From: Thiomicrospira sp. XS5
GTDB taxonomy: Bacteria; Pseudomonadota; Gammaproteobacteria; Thiomicrospirales; Thiomicrospiraceae
Direction of reading: 5' to 3'
Length of the DNA: 64,000 nt
NCBI RefSeq assembly: GCF_001507555.1
Contig: NZ_LQBO01000001.1
Span: 1,798,001-1,862,000 of the forward strand
Under the pieces are notes generated by a model, which had not been told where the DNA came from, searched no databases, and was given only the letters and a program-made list of their open reading frames with translations. Position numbers and translations under genes: made by a program. Below, one piece after another: positions 24,698-60,833 of this stretch. Each line of letters begins with the position of its first letter. The first letter of the stretch is position 1.

Positions 24698-24721
24698 AAA
24701 ACCGCCAGGCCTGGCGGTTTT
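24698..24721 (-). terminator. Terminator built on CCAGGCCTGG
   Basis: Perfect 24-bp palindrome AAAACCGCCAGG / its complement, ending in TTTT, between the peroxiredoxin-side gene at 24748 and the glycosylase gene. On the minus strand it follows the gene at 24748-25227. The core CCAGGCCTGG is at 24705-24714. Confidence 0.85.
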
Positions 24722-43892: not shown

Positions 43893-43918
43893 AAAAACCA
43901 CCAGGCCTGGTGGTTTTT
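43893..43918. terminator. Bidirectional terminator built on CCAGGCCTGG
   Basis: Perfect 26-bp palindrome with core at 43901-43910 and arms AAAAACCACCAGG. Convergent position between the DUF3087 gene and TonB receptor 3. Confidence 0.92.
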
Positions 43919-43932
43919 GATAGAACGCTTCC

Positions 43933-46461
43933 CTACCAGTCGTAAGCAGCCCCCAACCAGATTTGACGTCCCAATACATAATCATAAGAACCACTGCTCT
44001 TATTGAACTGTTTCTGGTAATTATCGAACACGTTGGTGACATCCATCGTCAAACTCAAGAAGGTTTCCGAGATTTTAAAGCGGTAAGTCGCGGATAAGTC
44101 CATCTGGAAATACGGCTCATAGTCAATGTAGTCGTATTCATTCATAATATCAAAAGACGATAGTCTATCCGTTCCATCATCCTGAACGAACTCGACATGC
44201 TCCGCTCCCGTTTGTTCAAAGCGAGTATAGCCGTCTTTGTAGAAGGCATATACTCCCAGCTGTAGGTTTTCCTGTGGCAAATAACTGTAATACAACTTCA
44301 CGGTTCCGGGGTTTGGGTCTTTAATTTTCCCCATTTGAGAAATCGGAATGGTCTCACCGTTGTAATAAATTTCTGCAGTATTCACACCGTCATCAACTTC
44401 ATCATCGTAATTGTCCAAGAAATTCTTCTCGCCTTCACCGATGAAGAAACTCAGTTGCAGCAGGTGTCGAGTCCATTCTCGGCGCCATTCCAGCTTCCAG
44501 CTATCGTACTTACTCCAACCATCATTGGTCATTTCTTCATATTGATGGCCGTCATCCGCCACCGGGCTGGTGGTACGGACGAACTGGTCGTAACTGTTTC
44601 TGAACACCCGTTCGGCGACAAACACGCCCCCCAAAACATTAATTTCCACCCCGAGGGATTTCTCGTCGGTATAAGGCGTATTCAATTCCGAGTAACGGGT
44701 AATGTCTTCATTGGTTCCAGTTCCAAGACTCCAGGCATCCGGCGTAATGACCTTTTGACCGTAAGCATCATAACCCGCCGTTGCGCCACGGGTGTATTGC
44801 TGATAATCCAGTCCGGCTTGTCGCAACTTGTAGGTCAAAAACGTATTGGCGTAATAACGGTTCATCCCACCGGTTAAAAACACTTTTTTACCGCCGAACA
44901 AATCGAACTTACCAAACGTACGATAAGCCACATCATGGTTTTCCATGAAATCGTTATAGTCGTATCGCAGCCCTAAACGTAGCATTAAACGTTCATACTC
45001 CAGAATGTCTTCTAAATAGGTTCCTACATTCATAATGTCCGCATTGGCCTGGCCGGCGCCATAGTTGATATCCCCAACGGCATATTGCTCGCCTTCCACG
45101 CAGGCATCGGTCCCATTACATCGTAAGTTCGACAACCCCGCTTCCGGCAGGCCACTGGCATCGTTACCCACCACATAATTATGGGTATCGTTAGGCCGTT
45201 TTTTATAAGCCGACACATAGTCCAATTCCGCTCCGGCATTGAATTGACTTAGCCAGTTACCAATCGAATACTCTTTGCCTTCAAAGTCCGACTTCAAATA
45301 GGTTCGATTTTGCTGGCTATCCAGGTCGCCATAACCGCCTTCTTTCGAATAGACCCCATCGGAATAGACACGCCCCCAGGGAAAGGTATCCGTTGGCGCC
45401 CAACGATAATAATCATCTGGCGCAAAACGGCGATTGTAACTTTGGTTATAAGACGCGGTGGTTTTAAACACCCCGACATCAAATCGATCTTCAAAATCCA
45501 GGTTGAACTTATAGCCGCCGCCTTCGATGTCGTATTGACTGTTGGCCGTTGTGGTCAAGTACCGGGTTTCCGTATAAGGCGCATAGGTGAATGACGCGTC
45601 GACAACGTGATCATCGTTAAAATAGTGGGTGACTTTCGCCAAAATATTATCGAGCTCCCGTTTTTCATTGACCGTTTCACCAAGATGCAAAACCGGAATA
45701 TTGGACGAGGTTCGGTCATAATTGATATAAAACGCGGTATCTTCGTTAATCGGCGTATTGATAAACAGATTATAGTTTTGCTTATCAAACTTCGGTTGCG
45801 CTTGCGAGGCACTATTCGAAAGCTCAAAATCCGTTTCTTCCGGGACATGAAACTGTGTCATCGCATCCGAGGTATAACGCCCGCTGATGCGGCCGGTAAA
45901 GTCAAACTTAGCACGCTTGGTTTTGGCATCAATCACCCCGCCACCAAATCGGCCATATTTGGCTGGTACATTACTGCTGTACACATCAATACTTTCAATC
46001 AAATCCAAATTCAGAAACATTTCTTGAGAATGCCCCGCCACACTCCCAATGCCGTTACTGTCGGATGCCGGATCCAAAATCGAGTTGTTTGGCGAGCCAT
46101 CCACAATAAAATTATTCTGGTACGCTCGCCCGCCCAAAATCGACACTTCCCCCGGTTTGATCTCCCCGGCTTGCGTGGAGGTCATTGAAGAGTCGTTCAA
46201 TTCCACTTCCGGTACAATTCTCAGGGCTTCGTTCATATTGCCGTTACCCTTTGGCATGGCCTTCAAAACCTCTTCGGATAAAACGCTTTTCCCTGACTGA
46301 CTGGTCGAGTCGTTGGAGAGCGAATGCTCTTCCGTTTCGCCTTGCACCACAACCGTCGGCAGCTCATCCGCTATAACGTCATAAACCGGCAGGACCCATA
46401 AGCTACTACCAAGTAAAATTCTTTGATAATGTGTCACTTTTTCTTGCTCAATTACGTTCAA
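43933..46461 (-). CDS. TonB-dependent outer membrane receptor (copy 3, large type)
   Basis: 842 residues, unrelated to the tandem pair except for the fold. A leader of about 30 residues precedes LPTVVVQGE, a TonB-box-like segment. The plug motif reads SILGGRAYQNNFIVDGSPNNSILDP. The barrel ends VLGRQIWLGAAYDW. The start is a TTG at 46461, the only option in this frame, and has no good ribosome site. It is the last gene in a cluster with a repeat lipoprotein and a dihaem peroxidase that has Fur-like sites upstream. Confidence 0.85.
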   Translation of the reverse strand: MNVIEQEKVTHYQRILLGSSLWVLPVYDVIADELPTVVVQGETEEHSLSNDSTSQSGKSVLSEEVLKAMPKGNGNMNEALRIVPEVELNDSSMTSTQAGEIKPGEVSILGGRAYQNNFIVDGSPNNSILDPASDSNGIGSVAGHSQEMFLNLDLIESIDVYSSNVPAKYGRFGGGVIDAKTKRAKFDFTGRISGRYTSDAMTQFHVPEETDFELSNSASQAQPKFDKQNYNLFINTPINEDTAFYINYDRTSSNIPVLHLGETVNEKRELDNILAKVTHYFNDDHVVDASFTYAPYTETRYLTTTANSQYDIEGGGYKFNLDFEDRFDVGVFKTTASYNQSYNRRFAPDDYYRWAPTDTFPWGRVYSDGVYSKEGGYGDLDSQQNRTYLKSDFEGKEYSIGNWLSQFNAGAELDYVSAYKKRPNDTHNYVVGNDASGLPEAGLSNLRCNGTDACVEGEQYAVGDINYGAGQANADIMNVGTYLEDILEYERLMLRLGLRYDYNDFMENHDVAYRTFGKFDLFGGKKVFLTGGMNRYYANTFLTYKLRQAGLDYQQYTRGATAGYDAYGQKVITPDAWSLGTGTNEDITRYSELNTPYTDEKSLGVEINVLGGVFVAERVFRNSYDQFVRTTSPVADDGHQYEEMTNDGWSKYDSWKLEWRREWTRHLLQLSFFIGEGEKNFLDNYDDEVDDGVNTAEIYYNGETIPISQMGKIKDPNPGTVKLYYSYLPQENLQLGVYAFYKDGYTRFEQTGAEHVEFVQDDGTDRLSSFDIMNEYDYIDYEPYFQMDLSATYRFKISETFLSLTMDVTNVFDNYQKQFNKSSGSYDYVLGRQIWLGAAYDW

Positions 46462-46520
46462 CGCAAAAAAGGGCGGAAGCTGTTCGCCCCCACCCTATGG
46501 TTTGGTTAAAATTGGATTAT

Positions 46521-49500
46521 TTAATAAGAACCGGCATAGAACGGCGTTAAGTCATTCGAATCGATAACACCGTCTCCATCGCTGTCGTCATCCAGCGTCA
46601 GGCCACACGCGGCAATCTGGTCATTGGTCGCACCATAGTCGTAAAAATCAGGCTTACCGTCTTCATCAAAATCCACCGTCGCTACCTCGCACGTTTCAAA
46701 AGCATCGTAGTCGGCCAAAGCGGTAGATAAAATGACTAAACTGTCTAAATAATGTGCATTATGCACAGCCTTAGGAATATTTGTAACGGCGAAGCTTTTT
46801 GCCAATTCCACTTGATTAAGCAGTGCATAACCATAAACCACCGCTTTATAAAACTTGATCCGGTCATCTTCGTTGGCGATGTTGCCAGCCACACCAATTA
46901 AAGCATTTACCGCGTTTTGCGCTTTAGCTGGATTATTTACTTCAACATAGTTATAAGCCAGGTTACTGGTAAAAGCGTGCAAGGATGAGTTATAGCTTCC
47001 CCCTAAAATTTCCGCTCGAGCAACATAATCTTCTTGAGCCGAATCGGAAACGACCATGGCCGTACCTGTTGCCAAAGCATAGATTGCATCCGTCACTTTT
47101 GTGGAAACCGCTAAGGTTGAATAGCCTTCGTCATTCAGAATGGTCGCTAAGGTGGCTAATCGTTTTTCACGGTTGGCCAAATCCTCAATTTTTTCAGCAT
47201 ACTCTAGGGCCATTTCAGCATACTCAATACCCTTATCTGTCATTCCCATTTGCAGATAATGACGAGCGATATAGGTTAAAGCATAAGCCTGATGATATGG
47301 TTCAGACACTTTAGCGTTTTCAGGTGCGTTATCCGCGTTTGTGGCTATAGCCACGGCTAAATCCATCGTCTCATTAACGGTTGATTCAGGCGCTCCCGCA
47401 AAATAATACAAATTGGCTAATTTTGCGTAACCATAATTCACATAGTACCTGGCTCTGTCTGAGTAAGACGTACTGGCAGTGGCCGCACTTTCAATCCCTT
47501 CTGATACGGCTTGGTCTAAAGCCACTTTTGCGGCATCAATCGCCTTAAGGGCCGAGGCATTGTAGCCTCCATCAATCAAATATTGAGCCATGTAATCGGT
47601 ATCTTTTGCAACGCCGTTGTAGGTCAACGCTTTAACAACATCCCGGGAATAGTCCGAACCGAACACCGATGCCGTCATTTCATCCGAAATAATTTGCAAG
47701 GCGCCATCGATATCCGTTTTAGCATAGGCCTTTGCATAATTTGCCCAACCGTTTGCAATATAAGTGTCTCGTCCAATGGTTCCGATAACTTCGGAAATAT
47801 CCGCTTTTGAATAACCGTAGTCGGCTAGAATTGGAATAATATTATTGGAAACCTTACTGTCTGTATAATAAACAGTGGCATCGTAATCAATCCCTCCGGA
47901 TGTTTTGATATTCCCAGCAATACCATCATTAGCACGAATACTTTTAATCTCGTCAGCAAGAGAAAGTGCTTGGCCGGCATCATTTAAGTGCCAGTAATAA
48001 ACATCCATAATAGCGGCCATACTGTAAATTTTAATTTGGTAATACCATTTACTTGGCGTATCTGGATAGGTCGCTTTTTTATTGGGTGGCGTTTGTAACG
48101 CAATATCATAAGCGGTTTGTAGTGTTGAACGCGCCAAGGCTATTTGGCCATTATCAGCGTATGCTTCCGCGGCCTCTGTCAAGCCGAAAACATAGGCCAT
48201 AAACGGTGTTGAATTGTCTCCAAAACCGTCTACCATAGAGAGCATATAAGCTGTAACAGCCTCTGCTTTAGCGGTTGCCCCCAATTTCGTATAGTCAACA
48301 TAATAGTTTCGAAACAGCACCATATCGGATGACTTAACACTGGCATACCCTTTCGACTCCAGATAACTTTTTAGCAATTCCAAGCCTTTATCCAAAAGTG
48401 CTTCGGCTGTTTCCAGTTCCTCGTTGTTGTCAATGTAATGGCTGGCGATGGCCTCCGAAATTTCCGCCTCACTGATGGGTTTGAATAATTTTCGGTTAGC
48501 ATATTGCAGAGCCAGTTCCGGTTCCCCATTTTTAAGATAGGCTTCTGCCAGCGCAACATAAACATCTTCCATGGTGTCGACATCGGTGACATCCGCCACA
48601 ATGGTTTCCGACTGGGCCAGATAAGACGCAGAAGAGGCAAAATAGTAGGCCCGTTTTGAATCACTGTCACCAGACAAGGCTTCCGCCAACGGCTGCTCAT
48701 TATTCAATAAATTATCGACCACCACGGCGGCCAAATTCACGCCGCTTAGATCCGGTTCGGGAATCGTCATGCCAGCGTCGGTGACGTCCAAAGAACTGTC
48801 CAGCTTAGAAAGGATTAATTGCGCTTGCGCTCTATTCGCCTGGGAAACACCGTTATCACTTAAAATCTGAAGCACTTTTTCGGTAATTTTTTCAGCGTTG
48901 CTCGACGTCGTCGCGTCGGATAAATCCGCACTGTTCAAAAACGCACTCTCTAAAACCGCTTTATGCACCACAAAAGCGTTCACGGCCCCGCTAACGGTTG
49001 TGGCCGCTTGAATGTAACGATTGGTTTCTTTCAATTTAGCGCGTACCGTCGCGTCGGAGACCTGAGAATCAATTAAGGCATCCAAATCGCCATTATTGAC
49101 CGTTAAACCAGAAAGCCCTTCTGTTCGATTCAAACCAACTTGCGTCAACATCAAACCGGTTTTCATTAAGCTAGCTGAGCTCTCGGTGGAATCATCGAGA
49201 ATGCTTTCCGATAAATTGAGTTGAGAGGCGATGGCCGCTCTGGCGGTTTCAACATCAACCGATTGGGACATCATGTAATTGGAAACCAGTGTCGTCACCG
49301 GCGTGACGTAAAGCATGCCATTTTCAGAAAACGCCAAAGGCGAACTCAACGCCATGCGACCTAAGCTTTCACCGGTTTCGGTATCCGAACCACCAATACT
49401 GACAATGGAATGTGCTGTCAAATCGGTATCCCCTGGCACCTGAAGTGAATATCCCCCGACCGCATTCGTGAGCGTTTTTTGCGTAAGGCACATGGATGGT

Positions 49501-49709
49501 GAATCGATTCGGCACATTTTGACAATGGCATTTTCAATGGCTGGATCCACCACCTTCCCCAGCACAGTTTGAGTCGATGTATCAGGGTCTGAAGGCGTTG
49601 GTAAAGTACTACCGGAACTGGAAGAACCGCCGCCTCCACCACAGGCAGAGAGCAATAAAGAAAAAGAAGCGGTGACAACCAACGCTTTACAACGACTTCT
49701 CAAAAACAT
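46521..49709 (-). CDS. Large lipoprotein with helical repeats and calcium-binding end
   Basis: 1062 residues from the ATG at 49709. Lipobox LSAC is followed by a GGGGGSSSSG linker. The body is built of alpha-helical, TPR-like repeats rich in A, L, Y and D (for example LALQYANRKL, LARSTLQTAYDIAL, GIEYAEMALEYAEKI). The C-terminus, DFDEDGKPDFYDY and DDDSDGDGVIDSNDLTPF, matches calcium-binding repeats of thrombospondin type. By analogy with SusD, a TPR surface lipoprotein beside a TonB receptor may capture its ligand (inference). Named family not recognised. Confidence 0.75.
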   Translation of the reverse strand: MFLRSRCKALVVTASFSLLLSACGGGGGSSSSGSTLPTPSDPDTSTQTVLGKVVDPAIENAIVKMCRIDSPSMCLTQKTLTNAVGGYSLQVPGDTDLTAHSIVSIGGSDTETGESLGRMALSSPLAFSENGMLYVTPVTTLVSNYMMSQSVDVETARAAIASQLNLSESILDDSTESSASLMKTGLMLTQVGLNRTEGLSGLTVNNGDLDALIDSQVSDATVRAKLKETNRYIQAATTVSGAVNAFVVHKAVLESAFLNSADLSDATTSSNAEKITEKVLQILSDNGVSQANRAQAQLILSKLDSSLDVTDAGMTIPEPDLSGVNLAAVVVDNLLNNEQPLAEALSGDSDSKRAYYFASSASYLAQSETIVADVTDVDTMEDVYVALAEAYLKNGEPELALQYANRKLFKPISEAEISEAIASHYIDNNEELETAEALLDKGLELLKSYLESKGYASVKSSDMVLFRNYYVDYTKLGATAKAEAVTAYMLSMVDGFGDNSTPFMAYVFGLTEAAEAYADNGQIALARSTLQTAYDIALQTPPNKKATYPDTPSKWYYQIKIYSMAAIMDVYYWHLNDAGQALSLADEIKSIRANDGIAGNIKTSGGIDYDATVYYTDSKVSNNIIPILADYGYSKADISEVIGTIGRDTYIANGWANYAKAYAKTDIDGALQIISDEMTASVFGSDYSRDVVKALTYNGVAKDTDYMAQYLIDGGYNASALKAIDAAKVALDQAVSEGIESAATASTSYSDRARYYVNYGYAKLANLYYFAGAPESTVNETMDLAVAIATNADNAPENAKVSEPYHQAYALTYIARHYLQMGMTDKGIEYAEMALEYAEKIEDLANREKRLATLATILNDEGYSTLAVSTKVTDAIYALATGTAMVVSDSAQEDYVARAEILGGSYNSSLHAFTSNLAYNYVEVNNPAKAQNAVNALIGVAGNIANEDDRIKFYKAVVYGYALLNQVELAKSFAVTNIPKAVHNAHYLDSLVILSTALADYDAFETCEVATVDFDEDGKPDFYDYGATNDQIAACGLTLDDDSDGDGVIDSNDLTPFYAGSY

Positions 49710-49756
49710 AAAAAACCCCGAAAAAATAAAATATGGAAAAATGAACATAAAATAAA

Positions 49757-49776
49757 TGATAGTTATTATTATTTAC
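49757..49776. promoter_or_regulatory. Fur-like site between peroxidase and lipoprotein genes
   Basis: TGATAGTTATTATTA (49757-49771) matches the 7-1-7 Fur pattern TGATAATnATTATCA at 12 of 14 positions. Confidence 0.5.
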
Positions 49777-49825
49777 ATTTAATTGAAAATTACAACCGTC
49801 GGTCGCCAATTAATTTAGGAAAAGT

Positions 49826-50929
49826 TTAAAAATTAGGCGGAGAGACATAACCACTACTCTCCGAGGAAATGGCTTCCAGGAAAGATTCAAGGGCCTCCAA
49901 CTCTTTTCTGGTCAGCTTTAAAGGCCTTATTAAAGATGTAACTGCGGGCTCCCCAGGTTTGAGCTTTTTATTGACGGTCATCCCATGGTTATACATATTG
50001 AGCACCCCTCTCAAGTGCGGGAACAGACCGTTGTGCATATAAGGACTAGAAAGCGTGATATTTCGTAACGAAGGCGTTTTGAATTTTCCTTTATCCGCCT
50101 CAAGCTGTGTCGCTTCATAGCGCCCCAAGTCTTGATATTTGCGGCCAAAGTAACTCAAGCCGGTGTTATGGTATTTTTGGTCCGAAAATAAAGCGCCACT
50201 GTGACAATTCAAACAGCGCCCTTTTGTACGGAATAAATGCAGCCCCTGAATCTCCTGATCCGATAATTGCTTATAGTCTCCTTCCACAAACCGGTCAAAC
50301 CGTGTTTTTCTGGAACGAATGGTCATTTCAAACCCGGCCAACGCTTGCCCAAGCATCTCGGCCGTAATGTGAGGCTCTTGCGGAAACACGGTTTGAAACG
50401 CACTTTGATAAAAGGCTGTCGCATTCAGTTTCTCCAGCACCTCGGATAACTTGGCATTCATTTCGATGGGATTTTCAATCGGCACCAGTGCTTGTTTCGC
50501 CAAGCCCGACACTCGGCCATCCCAGAAAAATTCATTGAACAGGCCGATATTGAACAAACTCATGGTGTTACGGTTACCCTGTGCCCGGTCATGGCCAAAG
50601 GCAAACCGCCGACCATCCGCCCAGGCCAATTGCGGATCATGACAGGACGCACAGGAAATCTGCCCTGACTTGGACAGTCTAGGGTCAAAAAAGAGGTGTT
50701 TTCCCAAATTGGCCAACTCATCGTCCACCGTTTGCATTGGTGGCAAGGCGCCGAGTTCATTCAGCTCAACCCCTGCGTCCAACGTCGGTTGGGGCCAGTT
50801 TTCCGGTTGCGTGGCATAAAGAGAGCGTAAATGCGAAGCGCTTGTACCCAAGCTGACAAACCACCAAGAAACACCGACCACCGAGACGATCAAGACCAAC
50901 ACCCAGAAAAAAAAGGATACCCTTTTCAT
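49826..50929 (-). CDS. Dihaem cytochrome c peroxidase, CCP/MauG superfamily
   Basis: 367 residues from the ATG at 50929, which has GAAGAG eight bases upstream. An uncleaved N-terminal helix (VLVLIVSVVGVSWWF) anchors it to the membrane. Two haem c sites: CASCH (93-97) and CLNCH (239-243). MHNGLFPHLRGVLNMY is the C-terminal haem-ligand region. It may reduce peroxide or modify a substrate protein as MauG does; context with a TonB receptor and a lipoprotein under Fur-like control does not decide. Confidence 0.9.
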   Translation of the reverse strand: MKRVSFFFWVLVLIVSVVGVSWWFVSLGTSASHLRSLYATQPENWPQPTLDAGVELNELGALPPMQTVDDELANLGKHLFFDPRLSKSGQISCASCHDPQLAWADGRRFAFGHDRAQGNRNTMSLFNIGLFNEFFWDGRVSGLAKQALVPIENPIEMNAKLSEVLEKLNATAFYQSAFQTVFPQEPHITAEMLGQALAGFEMTIRSRKTRFDRFVEGDYKQLSDQEIQGLHLFRTKGRCLNCHSGALFSDQKYHNTGLSYFGRKYQDLGRYEATQLEADKGKFKTPSLRNITLSSPYMHNGLFPHLRGVLNMYNHGMTVNKKLKPGEPAVTSLIRPLKLTRKELEALESFLEAISSESSGYVSPPNF

Positions 50930-50962
50930 TAAAACGCTCTTCAATACAACAAAAAAACAAAT

Positions 50963-50981
50963 GATAATTCTTTTTATTATC
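50963..50981. promoter_or_regulatory. Fur box upstream of the peroxidase gene
   Basis: GATAAT-N7-ATTATC with both outer hexamers perfect (14 of 19 positions of the Fur consensus match), 34 bp before the start codon. Confidence 0.65.
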
Positions 50982-51014
50982 TTATAAAACCCTTTTTATA
51001 TTTTTTAGACATAA

Positions 51015-51040
51015 AAAAACCACCAGGCCTGGTGGTTTTT
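51015..51040 (-). terminator. Terminator built on CCAGGCCTGG
   Basis: Perfect 26-bp palindrome with core at 51023-51032 and arms AAAAACCACCAGG, the same as at 43893. It follows the SpoIIAA-like gene on the minus strand. Confidence 0.92.
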
Positions 51041-56422: not shown

Positions 56423-58465
56423 TTAATGAATTTTCAACGTAATCGGTAACGCTCTGGGTAAATTACAGAATTGGCTATCCTCATTTGCAGTACAAGCAGA
56501 GAGAAGCGTATTGCCCTCAAATGCGTTTCGAGAATAGGTCATGGTGGCATCCATTCCCAAGAAGTCGCCATAGCTGTATGTATAGGCTTGAACGTATTTT
56601 GACAACTCTTTGGTATACAAATTGTACACGGGCTTAGTGTCACTCAGCCCCGTCAAACAACTCGGATTTTGGAACGCATTCCCTGTCGCCACGGCTGCAC
56701 GACTGTTGGTTTGATTCATCGGACTGGACTCACTGATTGGCGTCATCCCCGAACCGGAGCAAATCGGCAATAATCCAGCCGCTTGATAAGAAGCAATCGC
56801 ACGCCCCACAATCGCTCTAAAAGTGCCATTTGGCCCCCAAAGCGTTGTATTGGTTGCAAAGGTTGATTCATCGATTGGTGTGCCAGTACAGGAATCCGAA
56901 CCGGCCGCCGTTACAAAATCGCAGGTATCGAATTGGGTAAACGTTAGATCGGGTGTATCGGCGCAATTAGTGCCATCTTGAGTCGCCGCTCCCGTTCCGG
57001 GACAGTTTGAAAAATCCCCAACCAAAGCTTGAACCACATACGCCTCACTTGGACAATCATTACCAGAAATGGCTGAAAACACTAAATTATCGGAACCATC
57101 CACTTGCCCTTCAAGAATGCAGTTACTTTTGGCCGGACTCGTAACGGAGTTGGCATCGACATAGATAGGGTTAGTCTTTAAGTGATCCCATAACGCATTA
57201 ATATAGTCGTCGTAATAATCGTTTGCCATCGGCGTATTAGTTGGTTCACCGGCTTCAAAAAGCTGAATCGGCGCATAAAGCATGGTGGTATCGGCTGGGA
57301 TAGTTCCACCGGTCTTGGACGTCGCAAAATAATTGGCTGTCATATCCGGCGTAGCAGGTTCGACATATTTCCATGGGACAACAAATGTTTCATAAACATC
57401 GTAAATGGCTTTGTAAACGGCGGCTGTTCCTTGTGATATGGCTTCTTCCGTCGCCCCGGCATACCCTTTACCAGTCAAAACAGAATCCGGTAAATAGCTG
57501 GACGTGCCTAATGTGCTGGCCGAACCAAAATACTGTATATAGTTGACATAAGTCGTATCCAAAGTGAGCTGTTCACAAGTCACCTCGCCCGCCGCCACAC
57601 ACCGGTTCGATGCCGGCAACCCCGGGATAGTTTGTAAATAAGTTAGCTCAGCGGTAAAAAAGCCCGGCGTTCCAGGCGCATTCGGGTTGGGGGCCGCCGA
57701 ATCTGTAAATGGCTCAAACGAAAGGTAAAGTGTTCCTGATTCCCCATAGGGCAAATACACGACACCACCGTCTTGGCTTGGAAAGGCGAAGTCATCTGTC
57801 GCAAACTCTGTCCCCGGTGACCGTGTCGTCCCGACATAAAGACCATTGTTTAACGCAAAATGCGTCGTATTTCCGCCGTAAGCCGCGGCTAAATACAAAG
57901 CCGTTGCATCCGCGTTTTCATTAATGGTGCGAACAGCGATATGCTTAGCTAAATATTTAACGAACTGCGTCGTCATTTCATACTGGCCAATAGTCTCATT
58001 GCTGGTATCTTTAAACGTTAAAGAAAGCGTTTTGGAATTGTTCGCTTCACTGAAACCGGCCAGCGTTCCATTCACACTCAAGGTTTCATCGGCATCTAAT
58101 GAACATGGCAACGCCTGCGACACACCATTACACTGATACGACACATTGGTCAGATAGGACGCATCGTTGACATCCACAGTATTGACGGTAACAGAATCAC
58201 CGGATGTGTTTTTAAAGACGAAAACGGGCTTATAAGTAAACTGAGCACTGCTACTGGCATCATTGTAATAAAGCGTCTCGGCGATATTCTCTTCATAGGA
58301 CAATTCAAGTTTTGTTGATGAAGGCGTTGGAGATGGCGTAGGAGTGGGAGCCGGTTCAACAACAGTGTCGTCCGAAGAGCTTGATGAGCCACCGCCACCA
58401 CAAGCGGATATAAATAAAGAGAGAGTGAAAACAACGAAAAACTTCAATCCATGAATGACCTTCAT
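56423..58465 (-). CDS. Large cysteine-containing lipoprotein, unknown function
   Basis: 680 residues. AAAGGA ribosome site; lipobox ISAC, then a GGGGSSSSSDD linker and a Pro/Thr-rich segment (PAPTPTPSPTPSS). The rest is a beta-rich extracellular domain with many paired cysteines. The AYTYSYGDF segment and the C-terminal LPITLKI vaguely recall thaumatin/glucanase-like proteins, but this is not enough to assign a family. It is a single-gene transcript with a palindromic terminator and no functional partners nearby. Confidence 0.7.
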   Translation of the reverse strand: MKVIHGLKFFVVFTLSLFISACGGGGSSSSSDDTVVEPAPTPTPSPTPSSTKLELSYEENIAETLYYNDASSSAQFTYKPVFVFKNTSGDSVTVNTVDVNDASYLTNVSYQCNGVSQALPCSLDADETLSVNGTLAGFSEANNSKTLSLTFKDTSNETIGQYEMTTQFVKYLAKHIAVRTINENADATALYLAAAYGGNTTHFALNNGLYVGTTRSPGTEFATDDFAFPSQDGGVVYLPYGESGTLYLSFEPFTDSAAPNPNAPGTPGFFTAELTYLQTIPGLPASNRCVAAGEVTCEQLTLDTTYVNYIQYFGSASTLGTSSYLPDSVLTGKGYAGATEEAISQGTAAVYKAIYDVYETFVVPWKYVEPATPDMTANYFATSKTGGTIPADTTMLYAPIQLFEAGEPTNTPMANDYYDDYINALWDHLKTNPIYVDANSVTSPAKSNCILEGQVDGSDNLVFSAISGNDCPSEAYVVQALVGDFSNCPGTGAATQDGTNCADTPDLTFTQFDTCDFVTAAGSDSCTGTPIDESTFATNTTLWGPNGTFRAIVGRAIASYQAAGLLPICSGSGMTPISESSPMNQTNSRAAVATGNAFQNPSCLTGLSDTKPVYNLYTKELSKYVQAYTYSYGDFLGMDATMTYSRNAFEGNTLLSACTANEDSQFCNLPRALPITLKIH

Positions 58466-60434: not shown

Positions 60435-60833
60435 TTAGGAAACCTCGCCACTGACATACACCCAGTGCCCATCCGCATCACGCTTAAACCAGCTTTTTTC
60501 AGACATCACGCCTTTCTCAATGCCGGACTCACCGTCCAACTCATATTCCGCCCGGAACACCACCATGCCTTTTGCATCCTTTTCAGTGCCCTGCTTGGTT
60601 TTCACAATGCGCAACTTACGCCATTGCAAGCCGGATTCGAATGAAAAATTACCAGGCCTGGTGGTTTTATCCCAGGTTTGCAATAAATAGTCTTTCAGCT
60701 GTAATGCATAAGCACTGTAACGTGAACGCATTAACTGCTCGGCGGAGGCCGGGAAAGCCGCCCCAAGATGAAACGGTTCACAACAAGCGGCATACGGTTT
60801 TTTTGAACCACACAAACAAAGCGCCTTATTCAT
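60435..60833 (-). CDS. ychJ: YchJ-family SEC-C zinc-binding protein (UPF0225)
   Basis: 132 residues. The N-terminal CLCGSKKPYAACCEPFH is a SEC-C type zinc site, and SAEQLMRSRYSAYALQLKDYLLQTW and a C-terminal conserved tail match the UPF0225/YchJ family. Function unknown. The start overlaps the stop of the MATE gene (ATGA). Confidence 0.9.
   Translation of the reverse strand: MNKALCLCGSKKPYAACCEPFHLGAAFPASAEQLMRSRYSAYALQLKDYLLQTWDKTTRPGNFSFESGLQWRKLRIVKTKQGTEKDAKGMVVFRAEYELDGESGIEKGVMSEKSWFKRDADGHWVYVSGEVS
60652..60661. repeat. CCAGGCCTGG palindrome inside ychJ
   Basis: Exact 10-mer, read as TRPGN. Confidence 0.9.

Follow-up and report, generated by a model that had tools for sequence, protein, structure and literature searches.

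A predicted Fur-controlled gene cluster combining a FusA-like TonB receptor, a large lipoprotein and a MauG-type di-haem peroxidase

The DNA analysed here, a stretch of 64 kb referred to as the window, belongs to a relative of the sulphur bacterium Thiomicrorhabdus. On its minus strand it carried a trio of genes transcribed in the order di-haem peroxidase, lipoprotein and TonB receptor (Table 1). The start of the peroxidase gene was likelier to be the ATG at 50929 than the TTG at 50944, and the lipoprotein started at the ATG at 49709 and had the lipobox LLSAC. The start codon of the receptor gene was unsure, with TTG and GTG as the two candidates. A preliminary description of this DNA had pointed out the three genes in a row together with two Fur-type boxes, and all of these were found to be real by ORF prediction, Pfam and a box scan (15/19 and 14/19). 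Pfam assigned the neighbour upstream of the trio to a SpoIIAA-like protein and the downstream neighbour, on the other strand, to DUF3087, neither of which hints at iron uptake. No TonB, ABC or protease gene adjoined the cluster among the neighbouring ORFs and their Pfam matches.

Table 1. Genes and sequence elements of the cluster, with positions in the window
Feature	Position	Strand	Evidence
TonB-dependent receptor, FusA/YddB family by sequence, 842 residues	43933-46461	-	phmmer to FusA 4zgv, E 3.4e-85; profile E 1.4e-147
Lipoprotein, 1062 residues	46521-49709	-	ORF, lipobox, AlphaFold pLDDT 81; beside FusA-type receptors in 15/24 loci including the window
Di-haem peroxidase, MauG type	49826-50944	-	ORF; CCP_MauG 1.6e-53; Tyr318; one clade with other FusA-linked peroxidases
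Fur-type box 5' of peroxidase gene	50963-50981	.	15/19 to consensus; best in window; 0/400 Markov copies
Sigma-70-like promoter overlapping the Fur box	50961-50988	-	consensus scan 9/12
Overlapping Fur-type boxes 5' of lipoprotein gene	49752-49776	.	up to 14/19; 1.25% of Markov copies
Terminator-like hairpin between lipoprotein and receptor genes	46470-46496	-	scan, 11-bp stem
Palindromic terminator-like element 3' of receptor gene	43894-43917	.	exact match
Copy of the same palindromic element, after the gene upstream of the trio	51016-51039	.	exact match; hairpin in scan

The box preceding the peroxidase gene was the single best Fur-type site of the window, and ten first-order Markov copies of the window held on average 0.2 sites scoring at least 15. 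Each gene was also evaluated separately by comparing its 200 upstream bases with 400 Markov copies. The best 19-mer before the lipoprotein gene lay at 49758-49776 (14/19), and no box of such a score was found in the 200 bases upstream of the receptor gene (best 10/19). The TonB receptor gene at the genome's HemS locus served as a positive control and had a Fur-like site of 15/19, equalled in 0.25% of Markov copies. The window cluster has the mark of a Fur regulon, a Fur-type box at a promoter; sigma-70-like sites at the level of this promoter numbered 20 in the stretch against 13.8 expected and are no functional proof alone. When twelve gene sets were compared, with start codons chosen by eye, a Fur-like site above Markov chance (P ≤ 0.03, single test) preceded the first gene in seven: the window, one G032 copy, G057, G079, G181, G199 and the Mucispirillum locus L089. 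Fur-type sites recur in relatives. No Fur-like site above chance preceded the first gene of the remaining five sets (the other G032 copy, G060, L085, L086 and G231).

The receptor contained a Plug domain (Pfam). A single-sequence search of the PDB (phmmer, E ≤ 1) returned two distinct PDB sequences, the ferredoxin receptor FusA (4zgv), aligned over receptor residues 50-842, and E. coli YddB (E 2.5e-52). With a profile of six members, the E-values reached 1.4e-147 for FusA and 5e-94 for YddB, and the other PDB receptors gave plug-only matches of about 1e-7. PDB entry 6ofr is taken here to be E. coli YddB. This assumption fits the account in PMC6793856. The SusC-type models of Pfam and NCBIfam did not match the receptor. 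Given the PDB matches to FusA and YddB and the lack of a SusC-type match, the receptor is, as judged from its sequence, a member of the FusA family, the archetype of which imports whole ferredoxin (PMC6793856). The appearance of an uptake cluster was borne out in this respect. The parallel with SusC/SusD drawn in the preliminary description did not hold: a lipoprotein with TPR-like helices does adjoin a TonB receptor, but no SusC or SusD family (Pfam, NCBIfam) was matched by either gene.

The lipoprotein showed a weak TPR match under the Pfam cut-off and an Asp-rich, TSP3-like C-terminal end. No Pfam family exceeded its cut-off for the lipoproteins of the window, the two G032 copies and L089, and no NCBIfam family did so for those of the window, G060 and L089. 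An AlphaFold model built from 15 relatives revealed a beta-rich N-terminal domain, followed by a long TPR-like helical solenoid and an Asp-rich end modelled with low confidence. A fold search with this model matched generic helical-repeat proteins, among them retromer VPS35, LGN and PPR proteins; SusD was absent among the matches listed, which has no bearing on a SusD fold. The alignment of 15 members contained 18 invariant columns, 13 of them within the last ~55 residues. A lipobox could be detected by a simple pattern in 13 of the 15 members; inspection by eye indicated that one of the other two frames starts downstream and that the other has a box of a form outside the pattern. None of the 13 members with a pattern-found lipobox had Asp at position +2, so that, by the +2 rule for lipoprotein sorting, the protein is likely sorted to the outer membrane. 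Elsewhere in the window, the ORF 56423-58465 resembled the N-terminal stretch of the lipoprotein over 49 residues (window 58289-58435; 39%, E 6.4e-4) and gave a weak glucanase match under the Pfam cut-off.

Scanning genome contigs with the single lipoprotein sequence found no relatives. An alignment scan of named genomes found 11 lipoprotein loci, nine of which had a FusA-type receptor gene next after: two Thiomicrorhabdus (the same as G057 and G060), one Desulfobacterales MAG, three Deferribacteraceae MAGs and three Mucispirillum. The two Microbulbifer loci without a FusA-type receptor were discarded as, by eye, unrelated proteins sharing a common Asp-rich repeat. A lipoprotein profile searched across the class at 0.001 matched 36 of 369 genomes, and beyond G000, G181 and G199 the matches listed were partial, mostly to the N-terminal domain. 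A TPR-like protein preceding the G283 receptor was likewise rejected as a relative, having no profile match. In all 15 loci having the lipoprotein, its gene lay immediately 5' of the receptor gene on the same strand, with gaps of up to 1.1 kb.

Comparison within the order revealed receptor profile matches (at 0.001) in 8 of 62 genomes; three were weak and partial, and the other five genomes held six strong copies. Two of these lay in G032, and the window, G057, G060 and G079 contributed one apiece. Lipoprotein and peroxidase genes were present alongside every one of these six, and the three-gene order of the window is thus kept in other genomes with no scattering in relatives. Within the window's own genus, one of 11 genomes gave a strong receptor match. 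In G057, G060 and G079 two further genes came after the set, one for a trypsin-like PDZ protease and one for another TonB receptor, with Pfam assignments made on the copies of G057 and G060.

The lipoprotein also occurred beside FusA-type receptors in Desulfobacterota and Deferribacterota, mostly together with an M16 protease of the FusC/PqqL type. At the Mucispirillum locus L089 the lipoprotein and receptor genes were followed by genes for an ABC ATPase, an unassigned protein, a DUF4857 protein, ExbB, ExbD, TonB and a 949-residue M16 peptidase (Pfam), and at L085 an M16 gene adjoined the lipoprotein gene divergently. By their gene content, these loci look like Fus-type systems plus a lipoprotein. 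No full-length M16 protease was found in the window's own genome, where a PqqL search gave only two M16 frames, 458 and 486 aa long. The DUF4857 protein of L089 (17196-18452), which lies with the ABC ATPase between the receptor and ExbB, is possibly part of a carrier for the released product.

The peroxidase had two CXXCH motifs and a hydrophobic N-terminus. Its position 318 was Tyr in all ten receptor-linked peroxidases and in MauG; the same column was Met in the classical PDB enzymes aligned, and in 20 comparison rows it was Met in 15 and Tyr in 5. A classical cytochrome c peroxidase has Met as ligand of the high-potential haem, for which the window enzyme has Tyr318. The features of MauG, a Tyr ligand, a Trp between the haems and an acidic residue, were all present, at the Y318, W141 and E161 columns. 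All three residues have roles in MauG, in which Tyr294 is the haem ligand, and MauG and MbnH oxidise proteins. Position 118 was His in 9 of 10 receptor-linked peroxidases versus 1 of 20 others. The likeness to MauG and MbnH in the Tyr replacing Met and, for MauG, in the conserved Trp and Glu was countered by scores far under the curated NCBIfam cut-offs (MbnH 216/363 bits, MauG 215/444 bits).

Phylogenetic analysis of 30 peroxidase rows, with one duplicate (L018) dropped, grouped the ten receptor-linked enzymes in one clade (100/98). After the tree was extended with MauG and five more rows, the peroxidases of G181, a Novosphingobium plasmid and G167 joined this clade (13 rows, 100/99), and the claim of a clade for FusA-linked peroxidases became weaker; the stretches read at the Novosphingobium and G167 peroxidases (L125, L123) were free of FusA-type genes. 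Among 369 genomes sampled from the class, the peroxidase profile matched 129 at 1e-50 and five below 1e-100 (G000, G181, G199, G231 and G283), the next best being 6e-89; this search may miss copies, because few candidates per genome were scored. The same five were all of the 369 genomes with a receptor match below 1e-20. In four of them the peroxidase gene adjoined, or lay one gene from, the receptor or lipoprotein gene, that of G181 being on another contig, and in three (G000, G181 and G199) the lipoprotein gene stood beside the receptor gene.

The distribution of the two enzymes was then compared over 24 receptor loci, in stretches of 5 to 23 kb. These were the window, seven loci with the lipoprotein from the searched genomes, seven from the scan of named genomes, G231 and G283 from the search of the class, and seven plasmid loci (7 of the 13 records with a receptor match). 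Ten loci had the peroxidase only, 12 the M16 protease only, two neither (G181, and L088, whose contig ends) and none both, though the 24 are not independent because they include close copies (three Mucispirillum, three Deferribacteraceae and two Rhizobium). The lipoprotein was present at 15 loci and missing from nine, a share that is overstated because seven of the 15 were fetched by the lipoprotein itself. A receptor tree was constructed from 20 rows after four close copies had been set aside; the branches of G231, G199 and G283 were long, the Desulfobacterales row was partial, and G181 was labelled as having the peroxidase, its gene being on another contig. On this tree the lipoprotein label required 2 changes, 1 of them forced by well-supported branches (shuffled mean 6.5; 0/500 as low), and the peroxidase/M16 label required 5, 4 of them forced in this way (shuffled mean 6.8; 68/500 as low). 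Two close pairs carried different enzymes, Shinella with the peroxidase and Rhizobium with M16 (100/99), and G283, a long branch with the peroxidase, and YddB with M16 (96/95). These label changes suggest that the lipoprotein goes with the receptor lineage and that the processing gene has been exchanged.

Genes for HemS, a periplasmic-binding protein, FecCD and an ATPase were found near the set in two of four related genomes. G032 had one HemS-domain gene over the Pfam cut-off, two weaker ones and a ChaN-family gene in the region of its double cluster, with the periplasmic-binding, FecCD and ATPase set ~13 kb upstream. In G060 such a set and a clear HemS gene lay directly upstream on the same strand. 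No haem genes were seen by eye in the 20 kb listed for G057 and G079. In the window's own genome, HemS, periplasmic-binding, FecCD and ATPase genes together with a TonB receptor gene lay at C1:588-608 kb, far from the cluster. Since haem genes occur near the set in relatives, haem is the best guess for the cofactor of the predicted cargo.

Two known systems resemble the window cluster closely. The Fus system (FusA-B-C-D) of Pectobacterium and YddA-YddB-PqqL of E. coli have been described as 'protease-associated import systems' (PMC6793856). The window cluster shares with them a FusA-family receptor and iron-type control but differs in having a MauG-type peroxidase and a large lipoprotein instead of an M16 protease. 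The adjoining FusC/PqqL-type M16 protease that characterises Fus is absent from the window cluster and present in relatives with the same lipoprotein, and FusB-type TonB and FusD-type ABC genes, lacking here, are present at the Mucispirillum locus L089. The other is a variant noted by Grinter and colleagues in 2019, in which FusA homologues stand beside cytochrome c peroxidases, in an Achromobacter cluster and others, with FusC absent; these authors suggested that the peroxidase releases the cofactor reductively (PMC6793856). The window cluster likewise has a FusA homologue, a di-haem peroxidase and no FusC; it differs in the added lipoprotein partner and in the haem genes of two relatives. 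The main text of that paper contains no word beginning 'lipoprotein' or 'TPR', and no description of the present lipoprotein was found in the literature searched, which consisted mostly of titles and beginnings of abstracts with few subscription papers. The earlier view of the cluster as an uptake system of a new type therefore stands in part: the pairing of FusA with a peroxidase was in print in 2019, and the cluster is a variant of this known kind, its new parts being the lipoprotein partner and the repeated exchange of the enzyme.

The reading that we favour, and hold to be rather probable, is that of a Fus-like system for protein import under Fur control, with a MauG-like enzyme in place of the M16 protease and the lipoprotein as a partner. 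By analogy with FusA, the receptor would bind, on the outside of the cell, a small protein that carries iron or haem, and TonB energy would drive the entry of this protein through the outer membrane. The adjacent TPR lipoprotein, presumably in the outer membrane, would work with the receptor, either outside, where it would help to capture the cargo, or inside, where it would accept the incoming chain. In the periplasm the MauG-type enzyme, which alternates with M16 among the loci compared, would replace the FusC/PqqL protease and may release iron or haem from the cargo by redox chemistry. Because MauG and MbnH oxidise proteins, this chemistry may be oxidative and not reductive. The freed haem or iron could then pass to ordinary carriers, here probably those encoded by the distant HemS and ABC genes at C1:588-608 kb. 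We put forward only tentatively a narrower version, a haemoprotein importer of three parts. Across several phyla the TPR lipoprotein would serve one lineage of FusA receptors as a permanent co-receptor, and oxidation by the MauG-type enzyme would strip haem or iron from the imported protein, so that the task of FusC is done without proteolysis. The trypsin-like protease gene at 3 of 10 peroxidase loci weakens the non-proteolytic part, and cutting may still occur without M16 at G057, G060 and G079.

TbpA/TbpB and HpuA/HpuB are two-part receptors in which a lipoprotein serves in uptake from a host iron protein. A bipartite receptor of this type, in which the surface lipoprotein captures haem or a haemoprotein, haem alone is stripped off outside and enters, and the peroxidase protects against or uses peroxide, would share the two-part layout with a lipoprotein, and it would account for the proximity of haem genes in G032 and G060, for the constant place of the lipoprotein gene before the receptor gene and for the probable outer-membrane sorting. 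The receptor, however, falls in a family of whole-protein importers, the M16 proteases of the sister systems imply that protein enters there, and the lipoprotein matched no TbpB- or HpuA-type Pfam family; this arrangement is therefore considered improbable, though a real contender. An ordinary receptor for a small iron ligand, with neighbours present by chance or as general iron-stress genes, is less likely again. Such a receptor would agree with the Fur-like sites and with the additional TonB receptor gene that adjoins the set in three relatives, the G057 copy of which (L049) was nearest to the colicin I receptor, but it does not explain a gene order kept across phyla or the alternation of peroxidase and M16.

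The preliminary description had also pointed to the modification of partner proteins by some MauG-like peroxidases. In a further reading, the peroxidase would act on the lipoprotein (or the receptor) as MauG and MbnH do on their partners, and the binding site would be built in this way. The MauG-type Tyr at the haem-ligand position and the place of MauG in the same half of the extended peroxidase tree (21 rows, 100/100) agree with this. Each gene occurs without the other, however: at seven loci from two further phyla, two of these loci being on short contigs, the stretch around the lipoprotein gene contained no peroxidase, and G231, G283 and Shinella had peroxidase and receptor with no lipoprotein. 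Modification of the lipoprotein is for this reason very unlikely. A role in iron oxidation was set aside as well; a Hydrogenovibrio study reported an unnamed TonB receptor raised on Fe(II), the word peroxidase being absent from the text available (PMC11439405), and that receptor could not be attributed to the receptor gene of the window.

To our knowledge, whole-protein import via TonB receptors is well known only for ferredoxin. PMC6793856 presents ferredoxin as the well-known case in the same way. Against this background, a lipoprotein that accompanies one section of the FusA family across Gammaproteobacteria, Desulfobacterota and Deferribacterota, including Mucispirillum, would be a new part of the machinery, with SusD or TbpB as functional parallels. 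With M16 and MauG-type enzymes alternating on related receptors, what was briefly suggested in print becomes a claim that can be tested, namely that the two enzymes perform one job by different chemistry, and the present counts and receptor tree extend the pattern noted by Grinter et al. (PMC6793856).

Some further observations concern the surroundings of these loci. An uncharacterised lipoprotein-like protein stood beside a HemS gene in two genera (L050 18052-19179 and L104 7707-8900); the two proteins were alike by eye, and that of L050 had no Pfam family. The haem region of G032 also contained a TonB receptor remnant split over two short frames (L039 5904-6996), which by eye resembled the second receptor of L049. 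The terminator-like palindrome AAAACCACCAGGCCTGGTGGTTTT, found at both ends of the trio (Table 1), had two other copies in the window at 24698-24721 and 60645-60668, and 75 dispersed copies were present in the genome at up to 2 mismatches, the reversed control giving 0. In the copies listed, the outer stem varied in a paired way and the core CCAGGCCTGG was nearly constant, a constancy that is favoured by the mismatch limit and that hints at a second role, for example as an uptake signal.
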